64,000 nt of DNA from Gammaproteobacteria bacterium (GTDB lineage Bacteria > Pseudomonadota > Gammaproteobacteria > Pseudomonadales > Halieaceae). Where the stretch lies: positions 434,001-498,000 of the forward strand of contig JAUHXH010000001.1 of the NCBI GenBank assembly GCA_030427085.1, given 5' to 3'. A program made the position numbers and the translations under genes. The notes under the pieces were generated by a model. It was given only the letters and a program-made list of their open reading frames with translations, did no database searches and was not told the origin of the DNA. This document shows positions 3,616 to 53,935 of this stretch, in pieces; positions within the stretch are counted from its first letter, which is position 1, and each line of letters begins with the position of its first letter.

Positions 3616-4596
<981 letters not shown>

Positions 4597-4639
4597 CGAA
4601 GGGGGTCCTCGTGAAGTTGGGTGGGCATTCGGGGCGCGT

Positions 4640-4667
4640 ATTATCTGCGATTGATTCTAAATTACAA
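4640..4667 (-). promoter_or_regulatory. Sigma-70-type promoter for mdh
   Basis: On the minus strand TTGTAA (4667-4662) and GATAAT (4645-4640) are separated by 16 bp. This would start transcription near 4633, about 37 bases before the mdh ATG. The -35 matches 4/6 and the -10 matches 5/6. Confidence 0.55.
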
Positions 4668-4751
4668 GCATTGGCTGGCTTGCAGCCCCCGTCTGGCGTG
4701 GACTTGCCGCGGGTGCAGGCGGTAAAATGCGCGGCCATTTACGAGCACACG

Positions 4752-5603: not shown

Positions 5604-5620
5604 CTGTCGATGCACCCACT

Positions 5621-6945: not shown

Positions 6946-6995
6946 GCGGCGCGTTTTGGTGCTCACAGCAGGGTGGGCAGCGGCCCCAAGCCCTG

Positions 6996-7001
6996 TATAA
7001 T
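6996..7001 (+). promoter_or_regulatory. Perfect -10 hexamer upstream of ccmC (tentative internal promoter)
   Basis: TATAAT lies 11 bases before the ccmC ATG in the only sizeable gap of the ccm operon. No acceptable -35 is found at 16-18 bp, and the distance to the start codon would give an almost leaderless transcript, so this may be chance. Confidence 0.2.
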
Positions 7002-7011
7002 TGCCGCCGCT

Positions 7012-7752
7012 ATGTGGTCTTTCTTTCATAAACTGGGCTCGCCGCCGTGGCTCTACGGCATCTCCGGCTCCATCCTGCGCTGGCTGTTACCTGCCTCGAT
7101 CGTGGCGTTATTGGCGGGGCTGGCCTGGGTGCTCCTCGTGGTACCGCCCGATTTTCGCCAGGGCAACAGCTATCGCATCATGTACATCCATGTCCCCACG
7201 GCTGTGGTGTCGATGGCGGGGTACTACGTGATGGCGATAGCCGGCGCCATTCATCTGATCTGGAAGATGAAAATGGCCGATGTGGCGATGAAGTGTGCCG
7301 CACCCATCGGCGCTGCGCTCACCTTCCTGGCGCTGGTTACTGGCGCCATCTGGGGCAAGCCTACCTGGGGTACCTGGTGGGTCTGGGATGCGCGGATTAC
7401 CTCAGTGCTGGTGCTGCTGTTCCTTTATCTGGGCGTTATCGCGCTCTATGAAGCCTTCGATAACAAGGAAGCCGCCAGCCGGGCCTGTGCGGTGCTGAGT
7501 CTGGTGGGCATGGTCAATATCCCCATCATCTACAAGTCCGTGGACTGGTGGTACAGCCTGCACCAGCCGGCTTCGATCAAATTCACCAGTGAGTCCACCA
7601 TGGATGCCTCCATGCTATACCCACTGCTTTACATGATTATTGTGTTTTACGCGCTCTACACCTGCTTGCTGCTGCTGAATATGCGTGCCGAATTGCTGGA
7701 CCGCGAGCGCAGCAAGGGCTGGGTGCGTGCGTTGCTGAAGGGCTCCCGATGA
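7012..7752 (+). CDS. ccmC: Haem transporter CcmC
   Basis: CcmC presents haem to CcmE at the periplasmic face. The protein has six TM helices and the tryptophan-rich WWD motif (GTWWVWDARITS), which is flanked by the haem-ligand histidines of the family (one in YIHVPTAVVSM). The frame is open from GTG 6973, but the ATG at 7012 gives 246 residues, the usual family length (about 245), and the N-terminus MWSFFHKLGSP. It overlaps ccmD by 4 bases. Confidence 0.95.
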   Translation: MWSFFHKLGSPPWLYGISGSILRWLLPASIVALLAGLAWVLLVVPPDFRQGNSYRIMYIHVPTAVVSMAGYYVMAIAGAIHLIWKMKMADVAMKCAAPIGAALTFLALVTGAIWGKPTWGTWWVWDARITSVLVLLFLYLGVIALYEAFDNKEAASRACAVLSLVGMVNIPIIYKSVDWWYSLHQPASIKFTSESTMDASMLYPLLYMIIVFYALYTCLLLLNMRAELLDRERSKGWVRALLKGSR

Positions 7753-7955
7753 ACTGGCAATTTGATTCGCTGGCAGCGTTGATGCAGATGGACGGCCACG
7801 GTGCTTTCGTGTGGAGCGCCTACGGCATAACGGCGCTCGTGCTGGCCATATTGTTGGTAGCGCCGCTGAATCGGCGCAAGCGCCTGTTAAGTGAAATTCG
7901 TGGCGAGCAGCGTCGCCAAAAGGCAGCGGAGGAAGCCCATGCATCCCGTTCGTAA
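7749..7955 (+). CDS. ccmD: Haem exporter subunit CcmD
   Basis: CcmD is a small single-pass protein needed for release of holo-CcmE from CcmABC. These 68 residues have one TM helix (about 22-40) followed by a basic cytoplasmic tail ([18 protein letters not shown]). The start overlaps the ccmC stop (ATGA) and the end overlaps ccmE by 17 bases. Identification rests on the position between ccmC and ccmE and on the topology. Confidence 0.9.
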
Positions 7956-8394
7956 GCGCCGCCTGATGATCGTACTGTTTATTGTGCTGTTCTCCAGCGT
8001 GGCGGTGGGTCTGGTGGTGTATGGCTTAAGTGGCAATATCAACCTGTTTTATCCACCGGCAGAAGTGGTGGCGGGTAAGGCCCCGGTGGGGCAGTCTATC
8101 CGTGTCGGTGGCATGGTGGTGGATGGCAGTATTCAGCGGGCCAGCGATAGCTTGCGCGTAGCGTTTGAGTTGACCGATTACAGCGGCACAGTGCCGGTGG
8201 TTTACGAAGGCATCCTGCCGGATCTGTTTGACGAGGGGCAGGGCGCGGTAGCGGCGGGGCAGCTCGATGCCAATGGCGTGCTACAGGCTACCGAAATCCT
8301 CGCCAAGCACGACGAAAATTACATGCCGCCGGAAGTGGCCGAGGCACTGGAAGCCTCCGGTAAGGCACCCCCCGGTGCGGGTTCCGGATCGTGA
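7939..8394 (+). CDS. ccmE: Periplasmic haem chaperone CcmE
   Basis: CcmE binds haem covalently through a histidine and passes it to CcmF/H. The haem motif is seen as H124-DEN-Y128 in [13 protein letters not shown]. An N-terminal anchor (about residues 9-30) precedes the beta-barrel domain. ATG 7939 is chosen over an upstream GTG at 7891 because it follows a GGAGGAAG ribosome-binding site and gives the normal arrangement HPVRKRRLM before the anchor (151 residues). The stop overlaps ccmF by 4 bases. Confidence 0.95.
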
Positions 8395-10364
8395 TTGCTG
8401 AAATCGGCCATTTTGCGCTGATTCTGGCGCTTTGCGTGGCCTTGCTGCTGGCGCTGGTGCCCGCCTGGGGTTGCCTGGTCGGCAACCAGCGCGCCATGGG
8501 GATGGCTCCTTCGCTGGCTGTTGGCCTGTTGTTGTTCTCCCTGATTGCCTTCGCTTGCCTGGCCACGGTTTTCCTGCAGGACGATTTCAGTGTCGCGTTG
8601 GTGGCCAACAACTCCAATACCTTGTTGCCAGACGCCTACAAATTTTCAGCGGTGTGGGGTAACCACGAGGGCTCGTTGCTGTTGTGGGTGCTGATCCTCG
8701 CCGGCTGGACCGCGGCCGTAGCCGTATTCAGCGCTCAGTTACCGCTGATAGTGCTGGCGCGGGTACTGGCGGTGATGGGGGCGATCTCGGTCGGCTTCCT
8801 GTCCTTCTCCATATTCACTTCCAACCCCTTCAGTCGCCTGTTGCCCAACACACCGATGGAGGGCATGGACCTGAATCCGCTGCTACAGGATCCGGGCCTG
8901 ATTATTCACCCGCCGATTCTGTACATGGGTTATGTCGGATTCTCCGTAGCCTTTGCCTTCGCCATCGCCGCGCTCTGGGGCGGACGACTGGACGCCGCCT
9001 GGGCGCGCTGGTCGCGGCCGTGGACCAACGTCGCCTGGGCCTTTTTGACCCTGGGCATCATGCTGGGTAGCTGGTGGGCCTATTACGAGCTCGGTTGGGG
9101 CGGCTGGTGGTTCTGGGATCCGGTTGAAAACGCGTCCTTCATGCCCTGGCTGGCCGGCACCGCGCTGGTTCATTCGCTGGCGGTGACTGAAAAACGCGGC
9201 CTGTTCAAAAGCTGGACGGTCCTGCTGGCGCTGTTCGCGTTTTCCCTGAGCCTGTTGGGTACTTTCCTGGTGCGCTCTGGCGTGCTGACTTCCGTGCATG
9301 CCTTTGCCACCGATCCAGCTCGAGGCCTGTTCATCCTGGTGTTCCTGGCCATCGTGGTCGGCGGTTCGCTGGTACTGTTCGCACTGCGGGCACCGGCGGT
9401 GAGCAGCCGGGTGCGCTTCGAGTGGTTGTCGCGCGACACCTTGTTGCTGTTCAACAATGTAGTATTCCTGGTGGCCACCATCACCGTGCTGTTCGGCACG
9501 CTGTTCCCATTGATCATGGACGCCTTTGGGCAGGGCAAGTACTCCGTCGGCCCGCCTTACTTTAATACGGTTTTCGTGCCGTTGATGGCACTGTTGGTGC
9601 CATTTATGGGGATTGGGCCGATCTCACGCTGGAAGCGCGATACCGCACGCCGCTGGCAGGCGGAGCTGCTGTTGCCCGCCCTGGTTGCGTTGATCTGTGG
9701 CCTGACCTTGCCCCTGTTCGGGGGTGAAGATTACAACGTGTGGGTGGCCATCGCCCTGGTGATGGCCTTCTGGTTGACCTTCGGCCTGCTGCGCGATTTG
9801 TGGCATCGCTGCGGCGCCAAACTCTCTGGTTTGCGCCGGCTCTCCCCCAGCTACTGGGGGATGGTGCTGGCCCACCTGGGTTTTGCCGCTGCCATTATCG
9901 GTGTGGTGTTGGCCAGCCAGTACAGTGAAGAACGCGATTTGCGCATGGAAGCCGGCCAGTCGGAAACCCTGGCGGGCTATCGATTCCAGTTGCTGGAAGT
10001 GGCACGCGTTCGCGGCCCCAACTATGTCGCTGACGAGGCCCGCTTTGAGGTTAGCCGCGATGGCAAACTGATAGCACGCCTGGCGCCGCAGAAACGGCAT
10101 TATCTGGCCGGTGGATCGATGATGACCGAGGCGGCGATCGACGCCGGCCTGTGGCGCGACATTTACGTTGCCATGGGTGAAGCTGTGGGTGAGGGTGGCT
10201 GGGCCATTCGCCTGCACTACAAACCCATGGTGCGCTGGATGTGGCTGGGTGCAATCCTGATGGGGGCCGGTGGCCTGCTGACCGTAGCAGATCGGCGCTA
10301 CCGTGGCAGAAAACAGCCGGCCAGTGACACAGTGGAGGCGGGTGCCCATGCCGGCGCGGCTTAA
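8391..10364 (+). CDS. ccmF: Haem lyase subunit CcmF
   Basis: CcmF works with CcmH/I to attach haem b to the CXXCH cysteines of apocytochromes. The 657-residue polytopic protein contains the WWD-type motif [19 protein letters not shown] (about residues 236-254), the conserved [20 protein letters not shown] segment, many TM helices and a periplasmic domain near the C-terminus. The start is GTG 8391, overlapping the ccmE stop. The 3' end overlaps ccmG. Confidence 0.95.
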
Positions 10365-10884
10365 GCTATTCCTGCCACTGGTTGTTTTCTTCGGACTGGC
10401 ACTGCTGCTGTTCCGGGGGCTGCAACTCGACCCGCGAGAACTGCCCTCGGCGCTGATCGACCAGCCGTTCCCCGCCTTCTCCCTGCCCAGCCTGGCCAGT
10501 GGCGAAACACTGAACGTGGAGGCTTTGCGCGGTGAAGTGGCCCTGTACAACATCTGGGCCACCTGGTGTTACACCTGCCGCGTGGAACACCCCTATCTGC
10601 TCAAATTGGCGCAGCAGGGCGTGCCCATATACGGCGTGAACTACAAAGATGAGCCGGAGGCCGCGCGCCGCTGGCTGGCCGAACTGGGCGACCCCTATCG
10701 CGACAACATCGTCGACCAGAAGGGCACACTGGGACTGGACCTCGGCGTTACCGGAGCGCCTGAGACCTATCTGGTGGATAAGCGCGGCGTGATTCGCTAT
10801 CGGCACGTGGGCGAAGTGAATGAGCGAGTGTGGAAGGGCACCCTTGAACCGCTCTACGACGAATTGCTGCGGGAGGATTCCTGA
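10348..10884 (+). CDS. ccmG: Thiol:disulfide oxidoreductase CcmG/DsbE
   Basis: CcmG is a membrane-tethered thioredoxin-fold protein that reduces apocytochrome cysteines or CcmH. The active site is WCYTC within WATWCYTCRVEHP. The protein also has the CcmG-specific glutamate region and the cis-proline in VTGAPETYLVD. An N-terminal anchor covers about residues 5-24. ATG 10348 gives 178 residues and overlaps ccmF by 17 bases. The start of ccmH overlaps by one base at its end (TGATG). Confidence 0.95.
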   Translation: MPARLKLFLPLVVFFGLALLLFRGLQLDPRELPSALIDQPFPAFSLPSLASGETLNVEALRGEVALYNIWATWCYTCRVEHPYLLKLAQQGVPIYGVNYKDEPEAARRWLAELGDPYRDNIVDQKGTLGLDLGVTGAPETYLVDKRGVIRYRHVGEVNERVWKGTLEPLYDELLREDS

Positions 10885-11360
10885 TGCGCGCTGCCCTGAT
10901 TGCAGGCCTGATCGCTCTGTTGTTGAGTGTTTCCGCTGCCGCGGTGATCGAAACCTACCAGTTCGATACACCGGAGCAGGAAGCACGCTACCATCAGTTG
11001 GCGGCGGAATTACGCTGCCCCAAGTGCCAGAACCAGAATATCGCGGACTCCAACGCGCCGATTGCACAGGACCTGCGCGAGCAGTTGCATCGTCAACTTC
11101 AGCGCGGTGCCAGTGACGACGAGATCAAGGATTTTATGGTCGCTCGGTACGGAGAGTTCGTGTTGTACCGTCCGCGTTTCGGCGGCGATACCTTACTGCT
11201 GTGGCTGGCGCCAGCCGTTTTGCTGTTGCTGGCCTTGATCGTGCTGTGGCGCGTGGTGATCAGCCAACGCAATGCTGACAATCGTGCTGACAGCGGACTC
11301 AGTGAAGAAGAGCAGGCTCGCCTCGATGCCCTGGTGGCCGAAGAGGAGCGCAGCGCTTGA
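10884..11360 (+). CDS. ccmH: Cytochrome c maturation protein CcmH
   Basis: CcmH is a periplasmic, membrane-anchored reductant of apocytochrome c. The 158-residue protein has a signal peptide (MRAALIAGLIALLLSVSAAA), the redox motif LRCPKCQNQNIADS, a three-helix domain and one TM helix (about 105-125). This is the short CcmH/CcmL form; the TPR part found fused in E. coli CcmH is the separate gene ccmI that follows. Confidence 0.94.
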   Translation: MRAALIAGLIALLLSVSAAAVIETYQFDTPEQEARYHQLAAELRCPKCQNQNIADSNAPIAQDLREQLHRQLQRGASDDEIKDFMVARYGEFVLYRPRFGGDTLLLWLAPAVLLLLALIVLWRVVISQRNADNRADSGLSEEEQARLDALVAEEERSA

Positions 11361-19346: not shown

Positions 19347-19949
19347 ATGCGTTATCTGCTTTTGCCCCTAGTTCTCATGCTCGCTGCCTGCAGCACGTCG
19401 CCACCGTCCAACGTCAACGATATTTGCGCCATTTTTGAAGAGAAAGACGGCTGGTATCACGATGCCGCCGATGCGCGTAAGGAGTGGGGTGGCACCATTC
19501 CGATCATGATGGCGATCATCCACCAGGAATCGCGTTTTGTGGACAAGGCACGGCCGCCACGAAAGAAAATTCTCGGCTTTATTCCCGGCCCTCGACCGGC
19601 CTCAGCCTACGGCTATACCCAGGCCATTGACGAGACCTGGGAGACCTACGAAAGAAACGCCGGACGCTACGGCGCTGACCGCGATGACTTCGGTGATTCC
19701 ATCGATTTTGTCGGCTGGTACAACGATCAATCCTATCGGCGTAGTGGCATTGCCAAAACCGACGCATACCGGCTCTACCTGGCCTATCACGAAGGGCACG
19801 GTGGCTATAACCGGGGTAGTTATCGCAATAAAAAATGGCTGCGCGACGTGGCCCAGAAAGTATCACGTAAGGCGAGTACTTATCAGTCGCAACTTGCAGG
19901 TTGCGAAGCAGAATTAAAGAAACGCAAAAAGTTTTTGTGGATTTTCTGA
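19347..19949 (+). CDS. Lipoprotein with lytic-transglycosylase (SLT-like) fold
   Basis: This 200-residue protein is a predicted outer-membrane lipoprotein: the signal ends in lipobox LAAC with the lipidated C15, followed by serine and not aspartate. The mature part resembles a lysozyme-like transglycosylase domain, with a candidate catalytic glutamate E61 in IIHQESRF, then AYGYTQAIDETW and YLAYHEGHGGYNRG, which match the conserved SLT blocks. The C-terminus is lysine-rich (KKRKKFLWIF). It follows ligA without a gap. A role in peptidoglycan trimming is inferred from the fold; no specific family name is recognised. Confidence 0.75.
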   Translation: MRYLLLPLVLMLAACSTSPPSNVNDICAIFEEKDGWYHDAADARKEWGGTIPIMMAIIHQESRFVDKARPPRKKILGFIPGPRPASAYGYTQAIDETWETYERNAGRYGADRDDFGDSIDFVGWYNDQSYRRSGIAKTDAYRLYLAYHEGHGGYNRGSYRNKKWLRDVAQKVSRKASTYQSQLAGCEAELKKRKKFLWIF

Positions 19950-20123
19950 TACAGCGCCCGGCGAAGCAGTTCAACATGCTCGACCGCGCCAGCAGGGTGT
20001 GATCGGCCGCAATTATTTCCGCTATCACACTGGGTTAGCGTAAATTGCTTGTGGCACAATGCAGTGTAAAGTTCTTGCAGTGCCCGGGCAGTAAGAGCGC
20101 GGGCCAGCCAGTGGAGCGCCGCA

Positions 20124-21908
20124 GTGAAACCGACCGATACGTCGAACCCTGAGTACTTCCACAAGGTAGTGGATTGTCAGTACGCCTGTCCTGCACATAC
20201 CCCGGTTCCAGAATATATCCGATTGATCGCAGCGGGGCGTTATACCGACGCCTACATGATCAACTGGGTGTCCAATGTGTTTCCCGGCGTTCTGGGTCGC
20301 ACTTGCGACCGGCCCTGTGAACCGGCATGCCGTCGCGGGCGCCTCGGCGGCGACGAAGAGCCCGTTGCAATCTGCCGTTTGAAGCGGGTTGCGGCGGATA
20401 ATAAAACTGGCGATGACTTTCGCGCCCGCCTCCCCAAAATCCCCAAAAAGAAAAACGGCAAACGCATCGCCCTGATCGGCGCAGGCCCGGCGTCACTCAC
20501 CGTGGCACGGGATTTAATGCCGCTTGGCTACAGCATCGATATTTACGATAACCAGTTTGCCGGCGGCGGCATGATGCGTAGCCAGATTCCCTCATTCCGT
20601 TTGCCTATCGAAGTGCTCGACGAGGAGGTGGATTACATTCTCGACACTGGCGTGGTCACCCATTTCGATACTGAAGTGACCAGTCTGCAGTCCATTCTCG
20701 ACAAGGACTATGACGCGGTCTTCGTCGGTACGGGGGCGCCGCGCGGGCGCGACCTGAATATCCCCGGCCGGGGAGAGGGTGCCGACAATATCCATATCGG
20801 CATCGAGTGGTTGGCAAGTGTGGCCTTCGAACATCGCCACCAGGTGGGTAAGCGCGTGTTGGTACTCGGTGGTGGCAATACGGCAATGGACTGTTGCCGC
20901 ACCTCGCGTCGCCTCGGTGGTGACGAAGTGCGGGTGGTTGTGCGCAGCCCCTTCGCCGACATGAAGGCGTCACCCTGGGAAAAAGAAGATGCGATGCACG
21001 AAGACATTCCCATTTTCGATAATCACACGCCGAAGGAGTTTGTCATTGAAGGGGGCAAACTCGCCGGGATGGTGTTTGAGAAAGTCGAAGCTGAGTACGA
21101 TGAGAATGGTAAGCGTAGTCTTGTACCCACGGGTGAAGATCCGGTCTTTATGCCGGCGGATGATGTGCTCATCGCTATCGGGCAGGAAAATTCTTTCCCG
21201 TGGATAGAGCGTGACGCCGGCGTGGAGTTCGATCAGTGGGACATGCCGGTGGTGGATAAAGACACCTTCCAGTCCACCAACCCGAAAGTGTTTTTTGGCG
21301 GTGACGCCGCCTTTGGTCCGGAGAACGTGATTACGGCCGTGGCTCATGGTCATCAGGCCGCGGTGAGTATCCACCTCATGTGTGGTGGTAAGGACGTGGC
21401 CGAGCGCCCCGCGCCATTTACTAACCTGATGAGCCAGAAGATGGGCGTGCACGAATGGTCCTACGACAATCAGGTGGAAGACGACCCGCGCTACGTAGTG
21501 CCGCTGGCCGACAAAAGTAAGGCGCTGGCTGATCGTAAACTGGAAGTGGAATTGGGCTTCGATAAATCCACAGGATTTGCGGAGGCCGAGCGCTGCCTTA
21601 ATTGCGACGTACAGACTGTGTTCACGGAAGCGCGCTGTATCGAGTGTGATGCCTGCGTGGATATCTGCCCCACAGACTGCATCACCTTCACCGCGCCTGT
21701 AGAGGAGGAGATGCTGCGCACCCGATTGTCGGCACCTGCGGGCAATCTCGCCCAGGATCTGTATGTGTCGGACGTGCTGCCCACAACGCGCGTTCTGGTC
21801 AAGGACGAAAATGTCTGCCTGCACTGCGGCTTGTGCGCCGAGCGCTGCCCGACCACGGCCTGGGACATGCAGAAGTTTCTTTACAACGTCAGCCTGGCGG
21901 GACAATAA
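20124..21908 (+). CDS. GltD-like FAD/4Fe-4S subunit of 2-oxoacid oxidoreductase (KorC/BzdV-like)
   Basis: This 594-residue flavo-iron-sulfur protein probably moves electrons between the KorAB pair and NADP(H). Cysteines C18, C22, C61, C65, C69 and C83 form an N-terminal Fer4_20-type domain. An FAD loop (LIGAGPAS) and a nucleotide site (VLGGGNTAMD) follow in the order of the glutamate synthase small subunit. The C-terminus has two ferredoxin-like cysteine sets, CIECDACVDICP and CLHCGLCAERCP. The start is GTG 20124 after GTGGAGCG. korA begins 2 bases after the stop. Subunit make-up matches, from memory, the 2-oxoglutarate:NADP oxidoreductase of Azoarcus; the physiological direction here is unknown. 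Confidence 0.8.
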   Translation: MKPTDTSNPEYFHKVVDCQYACPAHTPVPEYIRLIAAGRYTDAYMINWVSNVFPGVLGRTCDRPCEPACRRGRLGGDEEPVAICRLKRVAADNKTGDDFRARLPKIPKKKNGKRIALIGAGPASLTVARDLMPLGYSIDIYDNQFAGGGMMRSQIPSFRLPIEVLDEEVDYILDTGVVTHFDTEVTSLQSILDKDYDAVFVGTGAPRGRDLNIPGRGEGADNIHIGIEWLASVAFEHRHQVGKRVLVLGGGNTAMDCCRTSRRLGGDEVRVVVRSPFADMKASPWEKEDAMHEDIPIFDNHTPKEFVIEGGKLAGMVFEKVEAEYDENGKRSLVPTGEDPVFMPADDVLIAIGQENSFPWIERDAGVEFDQWDMPVVDKDTFQSTNPKVFFGGDAAFGPENVITAVAHGHQAAVSIHLMCGGKDVAERPAPFTNLMSQKMGVHEWSYDNQVEDDPRYVVPLADKSKALADRKLEVELGFDKSTGFAEAERCLNCDVQTVFTEARCIECDACVDICPTDCITFTAPVEEEMLRTRLSAPAGNLAQDLYVSDVLPTTRVLVKDENVCLHCGLCAERCPTTAWDMQKFLYNVSLAGQ

Positions 21909-21910
21909 CG

Positions 21911-23767
21911 ATGAAAGCCCTGCAATCCGTTAACGACTTTGTTATCAAGTTCGCCAATGTGAACGGCACTGGCTCGGCCAGTGCCAATAACCTGTTTGCC
22001 AAGGCCCTGTTCCGCATGGGCTTGCCGGTGTCGCCGAAGAATATCTTCCCCTCCAATATTCAGGGCCTGCCCACCTGGTACGAAGTGCGCGTCAGTGAAA
22101 AGGGCTATCTGGGGCGGCGCGGTGGCGTGGATATCATGCTGTCGGTAAACCCCCAGAGCATGGCGCGGGACATTGGTGAAGTGGAGCCCGGCGGCTATTT
22201 CATTTACGACAACACCAAGCCGCTGGACCTGCGCCTGATCCGCAGTGACGTAACCATTATCGGTTTACCGCTGACCCGCCTGTGCAATGAGGAATACCAG
22301 GACCCACGCCAACGGCAACTGTTCAAGAACGTAATTTACGTGGGTGCGCTGGCGGCGCTGCTGGATATTGATTTTGGTGTGCTGACCACATTGGTGGGCG
22401 ATCAATTCAAAGGCAAGGAGAAGTTGATCACGCCCAATATCCACGCGCTTGAAATCGGTCACCACTATGCCCGCGACAACTTTGACTGCCCGCTGGGCAT
22501 TCGCGTCGAAACGCGGGAGCGCAATGGCGACCACATATTGCTCGATGGCAATACGGCGTTGGGGCTGGGAGCGATCTATGGCGGCGCAACTGTCGCTGCC
22601 TGGTATCCCATCACACCCTCCACTTCAGTGGTCGACGCTTTTGACAAATACGCCCGGCGCATGCGAATCGATGCCGGCACCGGCGCGCGGAATTACGCCA
22701 TTGTCCAGGCGGAGGATGAATTGGCAGCCATCGGCATGGTGATCGGTGCCAGCTGGAACGGCGCCCGTGCCTTTACTGCCACCAGCGGCCCGGGTCTGTC
22801 CCTGATGAGCGAGTTCCTCGGGCTGGCCTATTTTGCAGAAATCCCCACGGTACTGTTCGACGTGCAGCGCGCCGGACCTTCCACCGGCATGCCCACCCGC
22901 ACCCAGCAGTCGGACATACTGTCCGCCGCCTATGCGTCCCACGGCGATACCAAACAAGTTCTGTTGTTCCCGTCCACACCCAGGGAGTGCTTTGATTTCG
23001 GTGCGCAGTCCTTTGACCTCGCGGAGCGCCTCCAAACTCCCATCATCCTGATGACAGATCTGGATCTGGGTATGAACGACAACATGTCCCCACCCCTGGA
23101 ATGGGACGACGCGCGCGAGTACGACCGTGGCAAGGTACTCGATGCTGAAGCACTGGATGCCCTTGACCAGTATGGCCGTTACCTCGATGTGGACGGCGAC
23201 GCCATTTGCTATCGCACCTACCCCGGTACCCATCCGGAGAAGGGCGTCTTCTTCACCCGCGGTACCTCTCGTGATGAGTACGCGGTGTATACCGAACGGG
23301 GCGAGGAGTACGAGAAAAACATGCTCAGGCTGATGGCCAAGTGGGAAACCATCAAGGAGCATGTACCGGCACCGGAAATCGTCGAGGCCTCACGACCCAC
23401 CGATATGGCAGTGCTATATTTTGGTACCAGCGAGGCATCGTCCCGCGAAGCGCTCGATTATCTCGCGCAGGAAGGTATTTATCTGGACGCGATGCGGGTT
23501 CGCGCCTTCCCCTTTAACGACACCGTCGAGCAATTTATCCAGCAGCATGAAAAAGTGTTTGTGATTGAACAAAATCGCGATGCCCAATTGCGCACACTGC
23601 TGATGGCGGAGTTTGAGTTCGGGCCGGACAAGCTTAAATCCGTATTGTGCTTTGATGGCTCGCCGATCAGCGCACGCAATATTCGCAAACAGATATTGCA
23701 GCAATTACCCGGCCACAACGTTACCCCCCTGCGCCGCGAGCAGGCGAGTGGAGAGCACGCACGATGA
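21911..23767 (+). CDS. korA: 2-oxoacid:acceptor oxidoreductase, alpha subunit (gamma-alpha fusion)
   Basis: This 618-residue protein combines the gamma (PF01558-type) domain, about residues 15-190 with GTGSASANNLFAKAL, and the alpha pyrimidine-binding domain, from about 215 with YPITPSTSVVDAF and SGPGLSLMSEFLGLA. The C-terminal domain II is present. Such enzymes use TPP and 4Fe-4S clusters to oxidise a 2-oxoacid to its acyl-CoA, or to run the reverse carboxylation. ATG 21911 is chosen over an upstream GTG at 21833 that would overlap the preceding gene by 76 bases. Substrate is not certain; the layout is that of 2-oxoglutarate enzymes. Confidence 0.88.
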   Translation: MKALQSVNDFVIKFANVNGTGSASANNLFAKALFRMGLPVSPKNIFPSNIQGLPTWYEVRVSEKGYLGRRGGVDIMLSVNPQSMARDIGEVEPGGYFIYDNTKPLDLRLIRSDVTIIGLPLTRLCNEEYQDPRQRQLFKNVIYVGALAALLDIDFGVLTTLVGDQFKGKEKLITPNIHALEIGHHYARDNFDCPLGIRVETRERNGDHILLDGNTALGLGAIYGGATVAAWYPITPSTSVVDAFDKYARRMRIDAGTGARNYAIVQAEDELAAIGMVIGASWNGARAFTATSGPGLSLMSEFLGLAYFAEIPTVLFDVQRAGPSTGMPTRTQQSDILSAAYASHGDTKQVLLFPSTPRECFDFGAQSFDLAERLQTPIILMTDLDLGMNDNMSPPLEWDDAREYDRGKVLDAEALDALDQYGRYLDVDGDAICYRTYPGTHPEKGVFFTRGTSRDEYAVYTERGEEYEKNMLRLMAKWETIKEHVPAPEIVEASRPTDMAVLYFGTSEASSREALDYLAQEGIYLDAMRVRAFPFNDTVEQFIQQHEKVFVIEQNRDAQLRTLLMAEFEFGPDKLKSVLCFDGSPISARNIRKQILQQLPGHNVTPLRREQASGEHAR

Positions 23768-24816
23768 GTTACCAGTTACCGAACTTTCGCCATCCCGAGT
23801 TGCCGGTTAACGAACTGGGATACACCCGAGCTGACTACGAGGGCTCGATTTCAACCCTGTGTGCCGGTTGTGGCCACGATTCCATTGCGGGGGCGATTGT
23901 TAAAGCGGTACACGAGTTGTCCATCCCGCCCCACAAGATTGCGAAGCTGTCGGGCATCGGGTGTTCATCCAAGTCGCCTGCCTATTTTCTCGGCAAATCT
24001 CACGGCTTTAACTCTGTGCATGGCCGTATGCCCTCAGTGGCGACCGGTGCCGCCCTGGCCAATCGGGACATGATTTACCTGGGGGTGTCGGGTGATGGTG
24101 ACACGGCCTCTATTGGCATGGGGCAGTTTGCCCACGCCATCCGCCGCAACCTGAACATGGTTTACATCGTGATGAACAACGGTTGCTATGGCCTGACCAA
24201 GGGCCAGGACTCCGCCACCGCGGATGAAGGGTCCACCAGCAAGAAGGGCGACCCCAATCCTTTCGATGCCATCGATTTGCCCAGCCTCGCCCTGAACCTT
24301 GGGGCAACGTTTATCGCGCGCAGTTTCTCCGGAGACAAGGGGCAACTTGTCCCGCTGATCAAAGCGGCGATCACCCACCGGGGTTTCGCCATGATCGATG
24401 TGATCTCGCCCTGTGTCACCTTCAACAACAACCCGCAGTCCACCAAGTCCTATGAATTTGTTCGCGAGCACGCGGAGGCAACAGGCACAGTGGACTTTGT
24501 CCCCATGCGCGAGGAGATCACCACCTCCTACCCGCCGGGCAGTACCGCGGAAGTCACCATGCACGACGGCTCCGTACTCCACCTGCACAAGCAGGAGGAG
24601 GGCATGGATCCGTTTGACCGCATCTCTGCCATGAATGCGCTCGAACAGCACCGCGCCCGGGGCGATATTCTCACGGGATTGATCTATCTGGACGAGGATT
24701 CCCGTGAGCTTCACGAAGTGCTCGAGACCTCCCAGCGACCCTTAAATGAACTGGATGCGTCAGATTTATGTCCGGGAAACCGTGTTTTGGCCAATATCAA
24801 TGCGAGCCTGCGTTGA
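23764..24816 (+). CDS. korB: 2-oxoacid:acceptor oxidoreductase, beta subunit
   Basis: KorB holds TPP and a 4Fe-4S cluster. The 350-residue protein shows the cluster motif LCAGCGHDS, a conserved cysteine in GIGCSSKS, the TPP/Mg motif GDGDTASIGMGQFAHA, the asparagine pair in VMNNGCYGLTKGQDS, and a third cysteine near VISPCVTFNN. The start overlaps korA by 4 bases (ATGA), so the two are translationally coupled. A gap of 121 bases follows, holding the phoB control region. Confidence 0.9.
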   Translation: MSYQLPNFRHPELPVNELGYTRADYEGSISTLCAGCGHDSIAGAIVKAVHELSIPPHKIAKLSGIGCSSKSPAYFLGKSHGFNSVHGRMPSVATGAALANRDMIYLGVSGDGDTASIGMGQFAHAIRRNLNMVYIVMNNGCYGLTKGQDSATADEGSTSKKGDPNPFDAIDLPSLALNLGATFIARSFSGDKGQLVPLIKAAITHRGFAMIDVISPCVTFNNNPQSTKSYEFVREHAEATGTVDFVPMREEITTSYPPGSTAEVTMHDGSVLHLHKQEEGMDPFDRISAMNALEQHRARGDILTGLIYLDEDSRELHEVLETSQRPLNELDASDLCPGNRVLANINASLR

Positions 24817-24937: not shown

Positions 24938-25648
24938 ATGAACGAGCGCACCGTCCTCATCGTTGAGGATGAATTTGCGATCCGCGATATGCTGCGAATG
25001 GCGCTGGAAATCGCCGAATATAACTGTCTGGAGGCGGATAATATCCAGGATGCCTATCGCATGATTGTGGATGACCGGCCGGACCTGGTGCTGCTGGACT
25101 GGATGCTGCCAGGCGGCAGCGGTCTGGAATTGCTGCGCCGCCTCAAGCGCAATGACAGCACTCGGGAATTGCCCGTGATTATGCTCACCGCCAAGACTGC
25201 CGAGGATAACGTCGTGCAGGGCCTGGATGTTGGGGCGGATGATTACATCACCAAGCCTTTTGCGCCGCGCGAATTGATCGCCCGTATCAAGTCGCTGTTG
25301 CGCCGCGCCGGCGGCGGTGAGGCTTACGAGCGCATGCAGGTGTCTGAATTGGTGCTGGATGCCGAGAGCCGCCGCGTGTTCCTTGGCCAGAGCCTGGTGG
25401 ACATGGGGCCCACCGAGTTCAAGTTGCTGCATTTCTTTATGTCCCACCCGGAACGCGCCTACACCCGAGGGCAATTGCTGGACCAGGTCTGGGGTGCCAA
25501 CGTGTATGTAGAAGAACGCACTGTGGATGTTCACATCAGACGACTGCGCAAGGCCCTGCAGACCGAGGTTGCGGACTACAGCAACCTGATTCAGACCGTG
25601 CGCGGAACCGGTTATCGTTTCTCCTCTATAGGTAGCAGCGCTTCGTGA
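24938..25648 (+). CDS. phoB: Phosphate regulon response regulator PhoB
   Basis: PhoB activates phosphate-starvation genes when phosphorylated by PhoR. The 236-residue protein has a receiver domain with acidic pocket VEDE (9-12), phospho-acceptor D54 in LLDWMLPGGSG, and the lysine of ITKPFAPRE, followed by an OmpR-type winged helix (about 135-230) with RTVDVHIRRLRKAL. A Pho box upstream implies autoactivation. The stop overlaps the phoR start. Confidence 0.97.
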   Translation: MNERTVLIVEDEFAIRDMLRMALEIAEYNCLEADNIQDAYRMIVDDRPDLVLLDWMLPGGSGLELLRRLKRNDSTRELPVIMLTAKTAEDNVVQGLDVGADDYITKPFAPRELIARIKSLLRRAGGGEAYERMQVSELVLDAESRRVFLGQSLVDMGPTEFKLLHFFMSHPERAYTRGQLLDQVWGANVYVEERTVDVHIRRLRKALQTEVADYSNLIQTVRGTGYRFSSIGSSAS

Positions 25649-46133: not shown

Positions 46134-46152
46134 GCCGGGCACGGTGCCCGGC
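46134..46152. repeat. GC-rich inverted repeat upstream of sucA
   Basis: GCCGGGCAC and GTGCCCGGC flank a single G. It lies in the sdhB-sucA gap, 51 bases before the sucA start, with no T-tract. It may affect mRNA folding or processing, or be a dyad for a DNA-binding protein. Confidence 0.5.
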
Positions 46153-46203
46153 ATGATGAACTACGGTGCGCCGCCAGGGCGTGCCCCGAACCCGGACGGA
46201 CGG

Positions 46204-49053
46204 ATGCAAGACAACACTATGGAGCTTCTGTGGCGCAGTTCCCACATAGCGGGGGGGAATGCTACCTATGTTGAAGATCTCTACGAGTCCTACCTGACTG
46301 ACCCCAATACGGTACCCGAACAATGGCGCAACTATTTCGATGGTTTGCCGCGCGTTGAATCGGATACAACCCTGGGTCAGGACATTCCCCACTCAACCGT
46401 ACGCGACCATTTTGCCCAGATCAGCAAGATGCGGGTGCGCACCGAGGCCACAGTCCAGCAGGACTCCCAGGCCACGGAGCACGAGCGCAAGCAGGTTCGC
46501 GTGGTACAGCTTATTTCCGCCTACCGCCAGCGCGGTCACCAGAAGGCTCAGCTCGATCCGCTGGGGCTGAAGGTGCGCGACAAGGTGCCGGATCTGGACC
46601 TCAAGTTCCACCAGCTCTCTGAAGCCGACTACGACACCGTATTCCAGACGGGCTCCATGTACATCGGCAAGGCCGATGCCAGCCTCGGCGAAATCGTGCA
46701 CGCCCTGGAGCAGACCTACTGCCACACCATCGGCGCCGAGTTCATGCACATCGTGGACACCGAGCAGCGGCACTGGATCATGCAGCGCATGGAAAGCGTG
46801 CGTTCCGCCCCGGACTTCGGCACGGAAATACAGACCACGCTACTGCGCCGCCTGATCAAGGCTGAGGGCCTGGAAAAATCCCTGGGCTCCAAGTACCCCG
46901 GTACCAAGCGTTTCGGTCTGGAGGGCGGTGAGAGCCTGATTCCCATGCTGTCCGAGATGGTGCAGCGTTCCGGCTCCTACTTCGCCAAGGAAATCGTGAT
47001 CGGCATGGCCCACCGCGGCCGTCTGAACGTGCTGGTGAATATCTTCGGCAAGAACCCCGCCGACCTGTTTGATGAGTTCGAGGGCAAGACCCGCTTCGAT
47101 ACCTCGGGCGACGTGAAATACCACCAGGGCTTCTCGTCCAACATCATGACTCCCGGCGGCGAAGTTCACATGGCGCTGGCCTTCAACCCCTCCCACCTGG
47201 AAATTGTATCGCCGGTGGTAGAGGGTTCCGTGCGGGCACGCCAGGATCGCCGTGAAGACACTACCGGAAATCTGGTGGTGCCCATCGTGATTCACGGCGA
47301 TGCCGCCTTTGCGGGGCAGGGCGTGGTGATGGAAACCTTCCAGATGTCCCAGACCCGGGGCTACAAGACTGGCGGGACCATCCATATCGTGCTGAACAAC
47401 CAGGTAGGCTTCACCACCAGCCTGCGTGAAGATGCCCGCTCCACCGAGTATTGCACTGACGTGGCAAAAATGGTGCAGGCACCAATTTTCCACGTTAACG
47501 CTGACGACCCGGAAGCGGTGTTGTTCGTGACCCAACTGGCCGTGGACTTCCGCAACGAATTCCACCGCGACGTGGTGATCGACCTGGTTTGTTATCGCCG
47601 CCGCGGCCACAACGAGGCCGACGAGCCTTCAGTGACCCAGCCGCTGATGTACAGCCAGATTCGCCAGCAGAAAACGACTCGCGAATTGTATGCCGCGCGC
47701 TTGATCGAGAAGGGCGTGATCACCGCCGAGGAAGAGCAGTTCCTGATGGATGGTTACCGCGAGTCGCTGGACCGCGGAGAGCCGCTGGTGAGCTCGCTGG
47801 TGCGCGAACCCAATAAAGAGCTGTTCGTTGACTGGTCGCCTTACCTGGGTCATGAGTGGACCCTGCAAAGCGATACCCGCATGGACCTGGCCGAATTGCA
47901 GCGCCTGGCCCAGCACGCCAACCAGCCGCCGGAAAACCTGCCGTTGCAGCGCCAGGTCAACAAAATCCTGGAAGACCGCCGCAAGATGGCCGCCGGTGCG
48001 ATGCCGATCAACTGGGGCTTCGCCGAAACTCTGGCCTACGCCACGCTGCTGGACGCTGGCCATCCAGTACGCCTGACCGGTCAGGACGTGGGTCGTGGCA
48101 CTTTCTCCCACCGCCACGCGGTACTGCACAACCAGAAAGAAGAGAGCTGCTATATCCCGCTGCAGCACGTGTCCGACGATCAGGCTGAATTCGATATTTA
48201 CGATTCGCTGCTGTCGGAAGAAGCGGTGCTCGCTTTCGAATACGGCTACGCCACCACCAACCCCATGGGTCTGGTGATCTGGGAAGCTCAGTTTGGTGAC
48301 TTCGCCAATGGCGCCCAGGTGGTAATCGACCAGTTCATTACCAGCGGTGAGCACAAGTGGCAGCGCCTGTGTGGCCTGACCATGCTGCTGCCTCACGGCT
48401 ACGAAGGGCAGGGTCCGGAGCACTCTTCCGCGCGTCTGGAACGCTTCCTGCAGTTGTGCGCCGAGCACAATATTCAGGTCTGCGTGCCCACTACGCCCGC
48501 GCAGGTGTTCCACATGCTGCGTCGCCAGGCCATTCGCCCGCTGCGCAAGCCGCTGGTGGTGATGTCACCGAAGAGCCTGCTGCGCCACAAGGAAGCCACT
48601 TCAACGCTGGAAGAGTTGGCCGACGGTCACTTCTACAACGTACTGGACGACGGTGATGTGGCAGACAAGAGCCAGATCAAGCGCCTGATCCTGTGCAGTG
48701 GCAAGGTGTTCTACGATCTGCGCGCTGCACGACGCGAGCGCGAGATGGACGATGTGGCCATCGTGCGACTGGAGCAACTCTATCCCTTCCCGGAAGCGGA
48801 GTTGTTGCAGGTGCTGCGCGGTTACACCGGCCTGAAGGACGCCATCTGGTGTCAGGAAGAGCCCATGAACCAGGGCGCCTGGTACGCCAGCCAGCACCAT
48901 ATGCGGCGCGTACTGTTCCAGCACGATCAGAGTATTTACCTGCGCTATGTGGGTCGTGAAGCATCCGCCGCTCCGGCAGCGGGTTATATGGCCCTGCACA
49001 TGCAGCAGCAAGACGCATTTATCAACGAGGCACTGGCGCCGGTCCAGCCCTAG
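46204..49053 (+). CDS. sucA: 2-oxoglutarate dehydrogenase E1 component SucA
   Basis: SucA decarboxylates 2-oxoglutarate with TPP in the TCA cycle. The protein has the N-terminal segment that binds E2 (MELLWRSSHIAGGNATYVEDLYESYL, split here only by length limits in reading), the TPP/active-site block GMAHRGRLNVLVN, and the C-terminal EEPMNQGAWYASQHH. ATG 46204 gives 949 residues and the family-typical start MQDNTMELLW. The frame is open to GTG 46144, but that extension covers an inverted repeat and has no counterpart in relatives. Confidence 0.95.
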   Translation: MQDNTMELLWRSSHIAGGNATYVEDLYESYLTDPNTVPEQWRNYFDGLPRVESDTTLGQDIPHSTVRDHFAQISKMRVRTEATVQQDSQATEHERKQVRVVQLISAYRQRGHQKAQLDPLGLKVRDKVPDLDLKFHQLSEADYDTVFQTGSMYIGKADASLGEIVHALEQTYCHTIGAEFMHIVDTEQRHWIMQRMESVRSAPDFGTEIQTTLLRRLIKAEGLEKSLGSKYPGTKRFGLEGGESLIPMLSEMVQRSGSYFAKEIVIGMAHRGRLNVLVNIFGKNPADLFDEFEGKTRFDTSGDVKYHQGFSSNIMTPGGEVHMALAFNPSHLEIVSPVVEGSVRARQDRREDTTGNLVVPIVIHGDAAFAGQGVVMETFQMSQTRGYKTGGTIHIVLNNQVGFTTSLREDARSTEYCTDVAKMVQAPIFHVNADDPEAVLFVTQLAVDFRNEFHRDVVIDLVCYRRRGHNEADEPSVTQPLMYSQIRQQKTTRELYAARLIEKGVITAEEEQFLMDGYRESLDRGEPLVSSLVREPNKELFVDWSPYLGHEWTLQSDTRMDLAELQRLAQHANQPPENLPLQRQVNKILEDRRKMAAGAMPINWGFAETLAYATLLDAGHPVRLTGQDVGRGTFSHRHAVLHNQKEESCYIPLQHVSDDQAEFDIYDSLLSEEAVLAFEYGYATTNPMGLVIWEAQFGDFANGAQVVIDQFITSGEHKWQRLCGLTMLLPHGYEGQGPEHSSARLERFLQLCAEHNIQVCVPTTPAQVFHMLRRQAIRPLRKPLVVMSPKSLLRHKEATSTLEELADGHFYNVLDDGDVADKSQIKRLILCSGKVFYDLRAARREREMDDVAIVRLEQLYPFPEAELLQVLRGYTGLKDAIWCQEEPMNQGAWYASQHHMRRVLFQHDQSIYLRYVGREASAAPAAGYMALHMQQQDAFINEALAPVQP

Positions 49054-49088
49054 GCGGCGTTCCGGCTCAACAAGGGAAGTAAGTAGAG

Positions 49089-50303
49089 ATGGCATACGAA
49101 ATCAAGGCTCCGGCGTTTCCTGAATCTGTGGCAGATGGCGAAGTCGCCGCGTGGCACAAGCAGGAAGGCGAGGCAGTAGCACGCGACGAACTGTTGGTGG
49201 AGATCGAAACTGACAAGGTAGTGATGGAAGTGGTGGCACCGGTGGACGGTGTCCTGACCAGCATCAAGGCGCCGGAAGGCACTACCATCGAAAGCGAACA
49301 ACTGCTGGCTACGCTGGAGGAAGGCGCTGCTGCCAGCGCCGCGCCGACAGCAGCGGCAGCGCCGGCTGCGGAATCATCCGAAGCCGCACCGGCGGCCGCC
49401 GATGTACAGATGGGCCCTGCAGCCCGCCAGTTGATCGAAGAGCACGGCCTGGACCCCGCAAAGATTGGCGGTAGCGGCAAGAACGGCCGCATTACCAAAG
49501 AAGATATTCTGAAGCACCTGAAAGAAGCACCCGCTGAGAGTGCAGCGCCTGCACCGGCTGCCGCGGCTCCGGCGGCACCTGCGGCAGCGCCATCCGGCGA
49601 GCGCGTTGAAAAGCGTGTGCCGATGACGCGCATCCGCGCACGTATCGCTGAGCGCCTGCTCAATGCCAGCCAGGAAACGGCGATGTTGACCACCTTTAAC
49701 GAGGTCAATATGGCACCGGTGATGGCCCTGCGTAGCAAATACAAAGACCAGTTCGAGAAAACCCACAACGGCACTCGTCTGGGTTTCATGGGCTTCTTCG
49801 TTAAAGCTGCCTGTGAGGCGCTGAAGCGCTTCCCCGAGGTCAATGCCTCCATCGACGGCAATGACGTGGTCTACCACGGCTATCAGGACATTGGTGTGGC
49901 CGTATCCACCGAAACCGGTCTGGTAGTTCCCGTATTGCGCGACGCAGACTTCATGAGCCTGGCCGATGTTGAGGCGAGTATCCGTGACCTGGGCCTGCGT
50001 GCACGAGATAACAAGCTGACCATCGAAGATATGACCGGCGGCACCTTCACGGTGACCAACGGCGGCGTGTTCGGCTCCCTGATGTCTACACCGATCCTGA
50101 ACCCGCCCCAGACCGGCATTCTCGGTATGCACAAAATCCAGGAACGCCCGATGGCGGTTAATGGTGAAGTGGTAATCCTGCCGATGATGTATCTGGCCCT
50201 GTCCTACGACCACCGACTGATCGACGGTAAAACCGCGGTGCAGTTCCTGGTGGCCATTAAGGACCTGATCGAAGATCCGGCGCGTATTCTGCTACAACTG
50301 TAA
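49089..50303 (+). CDS. sucB: Dihydrolipoamide succinyltransferase SucB (E2)
   Basis: SucB transfers the succinyl group to CoA. The 404-residue protein has one lipoyl domain (1-75, lipoylated K43 in [11 protein letters not shown]), an alanine/proline linker, a peripheral subunit-binding domain (about 100-140, with [14 protein letters not shown]), a second alanine-rich linker and the catalytic domain (about 170-404) ending in [13 protein letters not shown]. It follows sucA by 35 bases. Confidence 0.97.
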
Positions 50304-50330
50304 GTAGTACGCGCCCTAACCAAATACTGA

Positions 50331-51782
<1,452 letters not shown>

Positions 51783-51841
51783 TTCCAATCGGGTTACAGC
51801 GCTCGCAAAGCATTCGCACATAACAACATAACAGCGTTGGG

Positions 51842-51860
51842 GGCGGCACGCCGTGCCGCC
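51842..51860. repeat. GC-rich inverted repeat upstream of sucC
   Basis: GGCGGCACG and CGTGCCGCC flank one C, 33 bases before the sucC ATG in the 111-base lpd-sucC gap. It has the same design as the repeat before sucA (9-base arms, one central base) but a different sequence. Confidence 0.5.
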
Positions 51861-51893
51861 AAAGAGACTTAAAAACGAAGACGGAACAGTGAC

Positions 51894-53063
51894 ATGAACC
51901 TTCACGAGTATCAGGGCAAGCAACTGTTTGCCGAGTACGGTCTGCCGGTCTCCAAAGGCCACGCCGTGGACACCGCAGAGGCAGCGGCAGCCGCAGCCGA
52001 CATGATCGGCGGTGACATGTGGGTAGTAAAAGCCCAGGTGCACGCCGGCGGACGCGGCAAGGCAGGCGGCGTAAAGCTGGTCAAAACCAAAGACGAGATC
52101 CGCGAATTCGCCAAACAGTGGCTGGGTAAAAACCTGGTGACCTACCAGACTGATGAAAACGGCCAGCCGGTCAGCAAGATTCTGGTGGAAGCCTGCACCG
52201 ATATCGCTGAAGAGCTTTACCTGGGTGCGGTGGTGGATCGCTCCACCCGTCGTATCGTTTTCATGGCCTCCACCGAAGGTGGTGTTGAAATCGAGAAAGT
52301 GGCTGAGGAAACTCCCGAGAAAATCCTGCGTGCCACCATCGATCCGCTGGTGGGCGCACAGCCTTACCAGGGCCGTGAACTGGCCTTCAAACTGGGCCTG
52401 AAAGGCGACCAGATCAAGCAGTTCGTGAAGATCTTCCTGGGTCTGGCGCAACTGTTCGAAGACAAGGACCTGGCGCTGATCGAAATCAACCCGCTGGTGA
52501 TCACCGATGAGGGCAACCTGCACTGTCTGGACGCCAAACTTGGTGTGGACGGCAACGCCCTGTACCGCCAGCCGGCCCTGCGTGAAATGGCTGACCCCAG
52601 CCAGGAAGACGAGCGCGAAGCGCACGCGGCCCAATGGGAGCTGAACTACGTGGCCCTGGATGGCAACATTGGTTGCATGGTGAACGGTGCTGGCCTGGCC
52701 ATGGGCACCATGGACATCGTCAAGCTGCACGGCGGTGCACCGGCCAACTTCCTCGACGTGGGCGGCGGCGCCACCAAAGAGCGCGTTACCGAAGCCTTCA
52801 AAATCATCCTTTCCGATGAAAATGTGGCCGCGGTTCTGGTCAACATCTTCGGCGGCATTGTCCGTTGTGACCTGATCGCCGAGGGCGTAATCGGCGCGGT
52901 GGAAGAAGTGGGCGTAAAAGTGCCCGTGGTAGTGCGCCTGGAAGGTAACAACGCAGAGCTGGGCCAGAAAGTCCTGGCCGACAGCGGACTGAACATCATT
53001 GCTGCCACCAGCCTTACAGATGCTGCTCAGCAGGCAGTTAAAGCAGCGGGAGGTGCGGCGTAA
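51894..53063 (+). CDS. sucC: Succinyl-CoA synthetase beta subunit SucC
   Basis: SucC forms ATP or GTP from succinyl-CoA with SucD. The 389-residue protein has an ATP-grasp N-terminal half ([19 protein letters not shown] at the start; [17 protein letters not shown]) and a C-terminal flavodoxin-like half with [15 protein letters not shown] and [10 protein letters not shown]. The stop overlaps the sucD start (TAATG). Confidence 0.97.
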
Positions 53064-53935
53064 TGAGCATTCTGATCGACAAAAACACCAAGGTAATCTG
53101 CCAGGGTTTCACCGGCTCCCAGGGTACTTTCCACTCTGAGCAAGCCATCGAGTACGGCACGCAAATGGTCGGCGGTGTAACCCCGGGCAAAGGCGGCCAG
53201 GAGCACCTTGGCCTGCCCGTGTTCAACACTGTAGCGGAAGCGGTTGAAGCCACGGGCGCGGAAGCCTCTGTGATCTACGTACCGGCTCCCTTCTGTAAGG
53301 ATTCCATCCTGGAAGCGGCCAACGCCGGCATCAAGCTGATCGTGTGCATCACCGAGGGTATTCCCACCCTGGACATGCTGGACGCGAAAGTGAAGTGCGA
53401 CGAGCTGGGTGTACGCCTGATCGGCCCCAACTGCCCGGGTGTCATCACTCCCGGCGAGTGCAAGATCGGCATCATGCCGGGCCACATTCACCTGCCTGGC
53501 AAGGTGGGCATTGTGTCTCGTTCCGGCACCCTGACTTACGAGGCGGTCAAGCAGACCACTGATGCGGGCTACGGTCAGTCCACTTGTGTCGGCATCGGCG
53601 GCGACCCGATTCCGGGCTCCAACTTCATCGATATCCTGGAAATGTTCCAGAACGACCCGGCCACCGAGGCCATCGTGATGATTGGTGAAATCGGCGGCAC
53701 CGCCGAGGAAGAGGCGGCTGCCTACATCAAGGCCAACGTGACCAAGCCGGTAGTGTCCTACATCGCGGGTGTTACCGCGCCGAAGGGTAAGCGCATGGGC
53801 CACGCGGGTGCCATCATCTCCGGCGGTAAAGGCACAGCGGACGAGAAGTTCGCGGCGCTGGAAGATGCCGGTGTTAAAACTGTCCGCTCCCTCGCCGATA
53901 TCGGTGCCGGACTGGCGGAAATTACCGGCTGGTAA
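53063..53935 (+). CDS. sucD: Succinyl-CoA synthetase alpha subunit SucD
   Basis: SucD carries the phosphohistidine and the CoA site. The 290-residue protein has [16 protein letters not shown] for CoA binding, [17 protein letters not shown], and the phosphorylated histidine in [18 protein letters not shown]. It ends the TCA operon and is followed by a terminator. Confidence 0.97.

Follow-up and report, generated by a model that had tools for sequence, protein, structure and literature searches.

Three adjacent genes of a marine Halieaceae bacterium, korC, korA and korB, probably encode a three-subunit 2-oxoglutarate:NADP+ oxidoreductase of the KGOR type, which would work oxidatively beside the lipoate-dependent 2-oxoglutarate dehydrogenase (OGDH) of the same genome. 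The likely role that we infer from the genes is the oxidative formation of succinyl-CoA and NADPH. The 2-oxoacid:acceptor oxidoreductases of aerobes are little understood, and the physiological acceptor of the Mycobacterium tuberculosis enzyme is given as not known in the available text of PMC2773412. The korCAB operon itself codes for an acceptor module, so that the whole electron path could be tested in one purified complex.

Genes, domains and cofactor residues of korCAB

In the ORF listing of the window (the whole 64-kb stretch of DNA analysed), three long open reading frames lie on one strand at 20124-21908, 21833-23767 and 23764-24816. The first, korC (20124..21908, plus strand), has a GTG start and encodes a GltD/Nfn-like FAD and NAD(P) subunit of 594 aa and 65.6 kDa, korA (21911..23767, plus strand) encodes a fused gamma-alpha 2-oxoacid oxidoreductase subunit of 618 aa and 68.8 kDa, and korB (23764..24816, plus strand) a thiamine-diphosphate and [4Fe-4S] subunit of 350 aa and 37.7 kDa. 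The korA frame opens at 21833, and the ATG at 21911, 2 bases past the korC stop, is the likelier start; the frames of korA and korB share 4 bases. The cluster at 20124-24816 stands as originally described, tight packing included, and only the korA start was moved, to 21911.

The domain matches agreed with the predicted subunits. KorC, expected to be a GltD-like FAD/NADP subunit with extra ferredoxin-type clusters, carries an N-terminal Fer4_20 domain, a pyridine-nucleotide oxidoreductase domain and a C-terminal ferredoxin-type Fer4 domain, and its FAD/NAD(P) part is nearest to chains of the Nfn, dihydropyrimidine dehydrogenase and glutamate synthase small-chain type. KorA, expected to be a gamma-alpha fusion, matched POR (gamma) fused to POR_N (alpha), and KorB matched TPP-binding C.

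Residue conservation was counted over the 108-114 aligned rows covering each position; cysteine motifs had been noticed at the outset. The invariant cysteines of KorC are Cys 18, 22, 61, 65, 69, 84, 491, 494, 505, 508, 511, 515, 565, 568, 571 and 575 (16, besides 257/258), with Cys 519 kept in 112 of 113 rows, and they would suffice for two clusters at the N-terminal end and at least two at the C-terminal end. The four of KorB are Cys 33, 36 and 67 (114/114 rows) and Cys 217 (112/112). The order korC-korA-korB was kept in every examined locus showing all three genes, with extra ORFs separating korC and korA in L074 and L077. As gene order and cysteines are both conserved across loci, the cluster is not a chance array.

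In the proposed mechanism, KorA and KorB would bind 2-oxoglutarate, thiamine diphosphate and CoA and decarboxylate 2-oxoglutarate to succinyl-CoA, and the electrons would pass from the KorB cluster to the FAD of KorC by way of its ferredoxin-type clusters, and from there to NADP+ (or free ferredoxin). The complex would thus yield NADPH where OGDH yields NADH. KorC Arg274 and Lys281 are invariant (112/112 rows); the NADPH phosphate of dihydropyrimidine dehydrogenase is bound by an Arg/Lys pair in the equivalent position, and NADP is the likely coenzyme of KorC.

Orthologues, substrate and direction

Among the best 80 of 146 places, the nearest named records for korA were Parahaliea, Haliea and Halioglobus. 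When Pseudomonadota genomes at least 90% complete were searched with korC (matches to E 1e-70), 26 of 397 besides the window's own held a gene at 60-71% identity and the next match was at 37%, so that the identity distribution was two-peaked. Four of the 18 matching records of a plasmid collection exceeded 60% identity to korC, namely three from Variovorax and one from Aromatoleum aromaticum EbN1. Plasmid 2 of the latter carries an orthologue of each of the three genes, likewise ordered korC-korA-korB (65.0, 61.4 and 64.3% identical by tblastn), with subunit masses of 65.0, 67.8 and 37.5 kDa, close to those of the Azoarcus evansii enzyme given below. As all three subunits have same-order orthologues in EbN1, korCAB was filed with the KGOR type.

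In a tree of 114 joined rows, obtained by a quick method with SH-aLRT support only and rooted by choice on G194/G306, EbN1, Variovorax and 14 other rows grouped together, apart from the 96 rows grouped with the window, both groups being starred. Two MAG contigs labelled Bacteroidota fell within the 96-row group; their korCAB genes lie at 4115-11021 (L074) and 5560-10964 (L077), the MAGs are labelled Saprospiraceae/Bacteroidetes, and either transfer or a binning error would account for them. When ten neighbour proteins were scanned by Pfam, no kor neighbour common to distant carriers was found that would name a pathway, and as the neighbours differ between lineages, the operon seems to move as one unit. 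A CBS-domain gene adjoins korCAB in four related loci (L119, L116, L123 and L124), and a distantly related one stands beside kor in EbN1 (L115); it is possibly an adenylate-sensing partner.

The substrate class was judged from family scores together with residue checks. KorA scored 569.7 bits against TIGR03710, above the cut-off of 482.75. KorB scored 203.1 bits against TIGR02177 (PorB/KorB), below the cut-off of 261.9, as did the EbN1 KorB with 200.9 bits, and KorC scored 384.8 bits against PRK12771, below the cut-off of 516. With all substrate-named models KorA stayed below the cut-offs, giving 172.0 bits for 2-oxoglutarate synthase alpha, 148.7 for VorB, 65.0 for PorA and 58.9 for IOR alpha. 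The idea that the cluster might encode an indolepyruvate enzyme fails on the distance between the TIGR03710 and IOR alpha scores: the indolepyruvate:ferredoxin oxidoreductase model gave 58.9 (KorA) and 28.6 (KorB) of 650.9 bits, and two fused proteins of that family lie elsewhere in the genome (L083 and L084, on G000:C5 and C1, assigned from scanned parts of 929 and 933 aa). The pyruvate (PFOR) family was also tried and ruled out, by 26.9 of 911.35 bits and by the retention of KorB Lys70 and Leu144. By these scores PFOR and IOR are excluded and a branched-chain substrate is left possible (VorB 148.7 against 172.0), and the VorB score slightly lowers confidence in the 2-oxoglutarate reading and slightly raises that in another substrate.

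Residues of the Sulfolobus OFOR that hold the carboxylate or matter for 2-oxoglutarate are identified in the available text of PMC5020499, where exchange of Lys49 for Ile abolished the activity with 2-oxoglutarate and kept that with pyruvate, and where the pyruvate-specific DaPFOR has Ile/Asn at the Lys49/Leu123 positions. The matching KorA residues Thr235, Arg320, Thr325 and Ser48 were present in 114 of 114 rows, as was KorB Lys70 (Sulfolobus Lys49), and Leu144 (Leu123) in 113 of 113; the pyruvate-type Ile/Asn was absent from all covering rows. At the equivalent of Asp468, which the same text gives as needed for 2-oxoglutarate in Sulfolobus and as likewise missing from the 2-oxoglutarate-specific KorAB of H. 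thermophilus, Thr (95 rows) or Ser (19 rows) follows an invariant Arg-Gly.

This replacement, together with the VorB score, the two acyl-CoA dehydrogenase genes just upstream of the EbN1 kor genes and the use of both pyruvate and 2-oxoglutarate by Sulfolobus relatives (PMC5020499, available text), would fit the same machine acting on another or a broad range of 2-oxoacids, such as pyruvate, a branched-chain acid or a catabolic intermediate. Such a substrate is nevertheless unlikely, as one active site, Lys70 included, is conserved in all aligned carriers, and a catabolic neighbour common to the carriers was not found. The Azoarcus evansii enzyme, moreover, is said to be highly specific for 2-oxoglutarate.

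The genome of the window (4.19 Mb, 99.97% complete) is taken, from the named records nearest to its korA, as Halieaceae (OM60/NOR5). As noticed at the outset, the window also holds a full sucAB-lpd: profile matches placed sucA, sucB, lpd, sucC and sucD, an ordinary OGDH complex with succinate-CoA ligase, at 46144..53935 on the plus strand, preceded by genes for an sdhA-type flavoprotein, an sdhB-like 2Fe-2S protein and an Sdh_cyt protein, the whole sdh-suc set lying about 18-29 kb downstream of korCAB. OGDH E1 (NF006914) was matched in all 80 genomes of one set, in 78 of them over the cut-off and in the other two (G031, G036) as contig-end pieces only. This set included all 26 sampled korC carriers outside Halieaceae. 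Of 24 Halieaceae examined in addition, 23 gave a match, the sole exception being G087, an assembly of 530 contigs. No clear case of korCAB replacing OGDH was found among the genomes examined. The co-occurrence of KGOR and OGDH in Halieaceae is already published, as the available text of PMC10100682 gives both 2-oxoglutarate systems for six strains except JH123; such a host was not expected for a KGOR, though it had been noted in print.

Operation in reverse, with CO2 fixed onto succinyl-CoA in a reductive or reversed oxidative TCA cycle, is very improbable for korCAB. Related two-subunit enzymes do run this way in autotrophs, as is generally known, but an oxidative sdh-suc set lies in the same window, and the built-in NAD(P) module has too high a potential for carboxylation, NADPH being a poor donor for the reaction that forms 2-oxoglutarate. 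In addition, no complete canonical CO2-fixation pathway is reported for six Halieaceae strains in the available text of PMC10100682. Of the two roles weighed in the original prediction, CO2 fixation is therefore disfavoured, and most likely is a second, NADPH-generating way through this step of the TCA cycle.

The supply of reduced ferredoxin to a low-potential sink such as benzoyl-CoA reductase or nitrogenase is scarcely credible for this host. The same family occurs in EbN1, and this role was reportedly proposed for Azoarcus, in the study of the A. evansii enzyme, and for rhizobia. Against it, HGD-D (PF06050, benzoyl-CoA reductase B/C type) gave no match in 64 Halieaceae, that is the window's genome and 63 relatives out of the 78 described below, and the NifH/BchL family gave none at E 1e-40 in the window's genome; PF00142 matches were confined to 26 genomes, the 25 with a reaction centre and G007. 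These absences agree with the original remark that nothing suggests an anaerobic aromatic lifestyle. The match in G007 (C33:26778-27593, 439.9 bits) is nitrogenase-like by score, and this genome lacks a reaction centre and keeps kor.

The slt-phoB site and korC in phototrophs

In the window, korCAB is bordered on the left by slt (SLT_4 transglycosylase, 19347..19949, plus strand) and on the right by a phoB-like response regulator gene (24938..25648, plus strand). Among 115 kor loci, some pairs of which are the same sequence, both neighbours were present in 38 (the window included), slt only in 9, phoB only in 3 and neither in 65. The slt neighbour was also found at L051 and L056, labelled Spongiibacteraceae, and L053 (Litorivivens); the slt-kor-phoB site therefore looks older than Halieaceae, and an empty site would then mean loss.

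A palindrome, TTGTGGCACAAT, lies at 20049..20060 on the plus strand, about 74 nt before korC. In the window alone it is not beyond chance, and its conservation in many Halieaceae is the evidence: TGTGNCACA stands 66-98 nt before korC in 29 of 109 upstream regions, where simple shuffles would give 0.35. Inspection by eye showed an ATGAAA-like hexamer 17 bp before CACAAT in several of these regions, and the palindrome is possibly an operator or promoter element. The palindrome is not an FNR box. FNR-type control was considered and rejected, as the best FNR-like matches upstream of 109 korC genes resemble shuffles, so that oxygen control of korC is unsupported.

The presence of korC was followed in 78 of 120 sampled Halieaceae genomes, those with 90% completeness or more and no more than 5% contamination (42 were dropped). 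It was present in 61 (72-100% identity) and absent from 17. In two long-contig genomes, G032 (L174) and G070 (L173), korC was split over two frames, by a sequencing error or as a young pseudogene, and in G073 the match ended at residue 572, taken for a contig end. A reaction centre (Photo_RC, PF00124) was matched in 25 of the 78, and korC was absent from 17 of these 25 (8 carry it) versus none of the 53 without a reaction centre (Fisher p 1.7e-11, kinship ignored). In contrast, korC was kept in 13 of 13 rhodopsin genomes. In the available text of PMC10100682, JH123 is the only one of six strains without KGOR and the only one with an AAP cluster. No statement tying kor absence to phototrophy was found in the literature searched, including the available texts of PMC10100682, PMC3679898, PMC3666943 and PMC2654016, and the loss pattern is new.

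Kinship was corrected for on a SucA-SucB-Lpd tree with 76 rows from the family, in which G031 and G087 are not represented and several rows are incomplete (that of G036 is 17% filled). Of the four independent contrasts that this leaves, an average of 3.2 pair kor absence with phototrophy, 0 run the opposite way and 0.8 show no difference; the sign test gives p 0.125-0.5. A Pagel-type likelihood test, a kind that over-rejects with few events, gave p 1.4e-4 for the reaction centre and 0.29 for rhodopsin, with some fitted rates at the limit. The pattern is phylogenetically thin but striking and, as there are only about four independent contrasts, a lead and not a proof.

Two other causes were tried and rejected. 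A general loss of such enzymes in phototrophs does not fit, as one or more POR-domain proteins are still encoded in 15 of the 17 phototrophs without kor; the other two, G034 and G102, gave no POR-domain match, and neither did the korC carrier G073. Among the matches listed, five of the 17 have POR frames of 736-1411 aa and many small phototrophs keep a single POR-domain protein. Genome shrinkage is not the sole cause, as 6 of the 17 genomes without kor are larger than 3.3 Mb and korC is kept by 9 of 9 non-phototrophs of up to 3.3 Mb, although phototroph genomes are smaller overall (medians of 2.8 and 3.05 versus 4.1 Mb) and shrinkage may be part of the cause.

At the site itself, slt is directly followed by phoB, without kor, in 22 of the 25 phototrophs; the contig ends in G093, and no slt match was found in G036 and G087. 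Three non-phototrophs were compared, with korC at the site in G007 and G024 and an empty site in G049. Of the eight kor-bearing phototrophs, seven have kor away from the slt-phoB site and G087 is unreadable. Such moves are not limited to phototrophs: both border genes are missing at L008, L015 and L027 as well, and in the rhodopsin genome G040 the distance between kor and sucA is 360 kb. Five of the seven phototrophs (G059, G075, G082, G084 and G104), with G049, G060, named Luminiphilus and related MAGs, form a starred 16-row clade of their own (two pairs identical) in the 114-row tree. As this clade stands outside the main 56-row Halieaceae clade, its position suggests that they regained kor, fast change of a moved copy being another possibility. 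For G008 and G031, kor groups within the main clade, which suggests relocation.

As a tentative and rather doubtful explanation, the KGOR route and bacteriochlorophyll phototrophy might be alternatives in Halieaceae. The old copy would have been lost either because an NADPH-forming TCA step is needless beside light-driven proton-motive force and the NADH-forming OGDH, or because photophosphorylation is blocked by additional reductant; a different korCAB would later have been gained elsewhere by some phototrophs and by one non-phototroph, and proteorhodopsin, being independent of the quinone redox state, would cause no loss. In the available text of PMC3666943, accumulated reductant is argued to repress pigment formation in OM60/NOR5 phototrophs, which are without CO2 or N2 fixation as redox outlets, and a second, NADPH-forming oxidation of 2-oxoglutarate would presumably add reductant. 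Counting against the simple reductant idea, the pigments of Congregibacter litoralis were sometimes induced on 2-oxoglutarate (PMC2654016, available text). The pattern yields a concrete hypothesis on the rewiring of central metabolism in aerobic phototrophs, testable in culturable marine strains.

Comparison with known systems

KorC shares its Fer4_20, FAD and NAD(P) domains with NfnL, dihydropyrimidine dehydrogenase and the glutamate synthase small subunit. KorA and KorB are homologous to PDB 6n2n, which we take to be the Magnetococcus enzyme, and share most active-site residues with it. The same holds for the two-subunit Sulfolobus and Hydrogenobacter KorAB/OFOR enzymes (PMC5020499, available text), but all of these are without KorC and use a separate ferredoxin as acceptor. 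The KorAB of M. tuberculosis likewise belongs to an aerobic host with a second 2-oxoglutarate route; in the available text of PMC2773412 its oxidative role was shown with mutants and it is the main route on fatty acids, but, unlike in the KGOR type, no NAD(P) subunit is named and NADP+ was not reduced.

Among the matches listed, GltD-like paralogues in Halieaceae genomes are about 32-37% identical to korC. The closest likeness noted at the outset, to the Azoarcus 2-oxoglutarate:NADP oxidoreductase, is upheld by the same subunit make-up and by the EbN1 orthologues of all three genes. The A. evansii KGOR, reportedly purified as a three-subunit enzyme of 63, 62 and 37 kDa, differs from korCAB in its host, korCAB belonging to a marine Halieaceae genome in which no benzoyl-CoA reductase B/C-type gene was found. 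It resembles korCAB in subunit number and sizes, in an FAD/NADP subunit with ferredoxin-type clusters, and in a fused gamma-alpha subunit paired with a TPP/[4Fe-4S] subunit.
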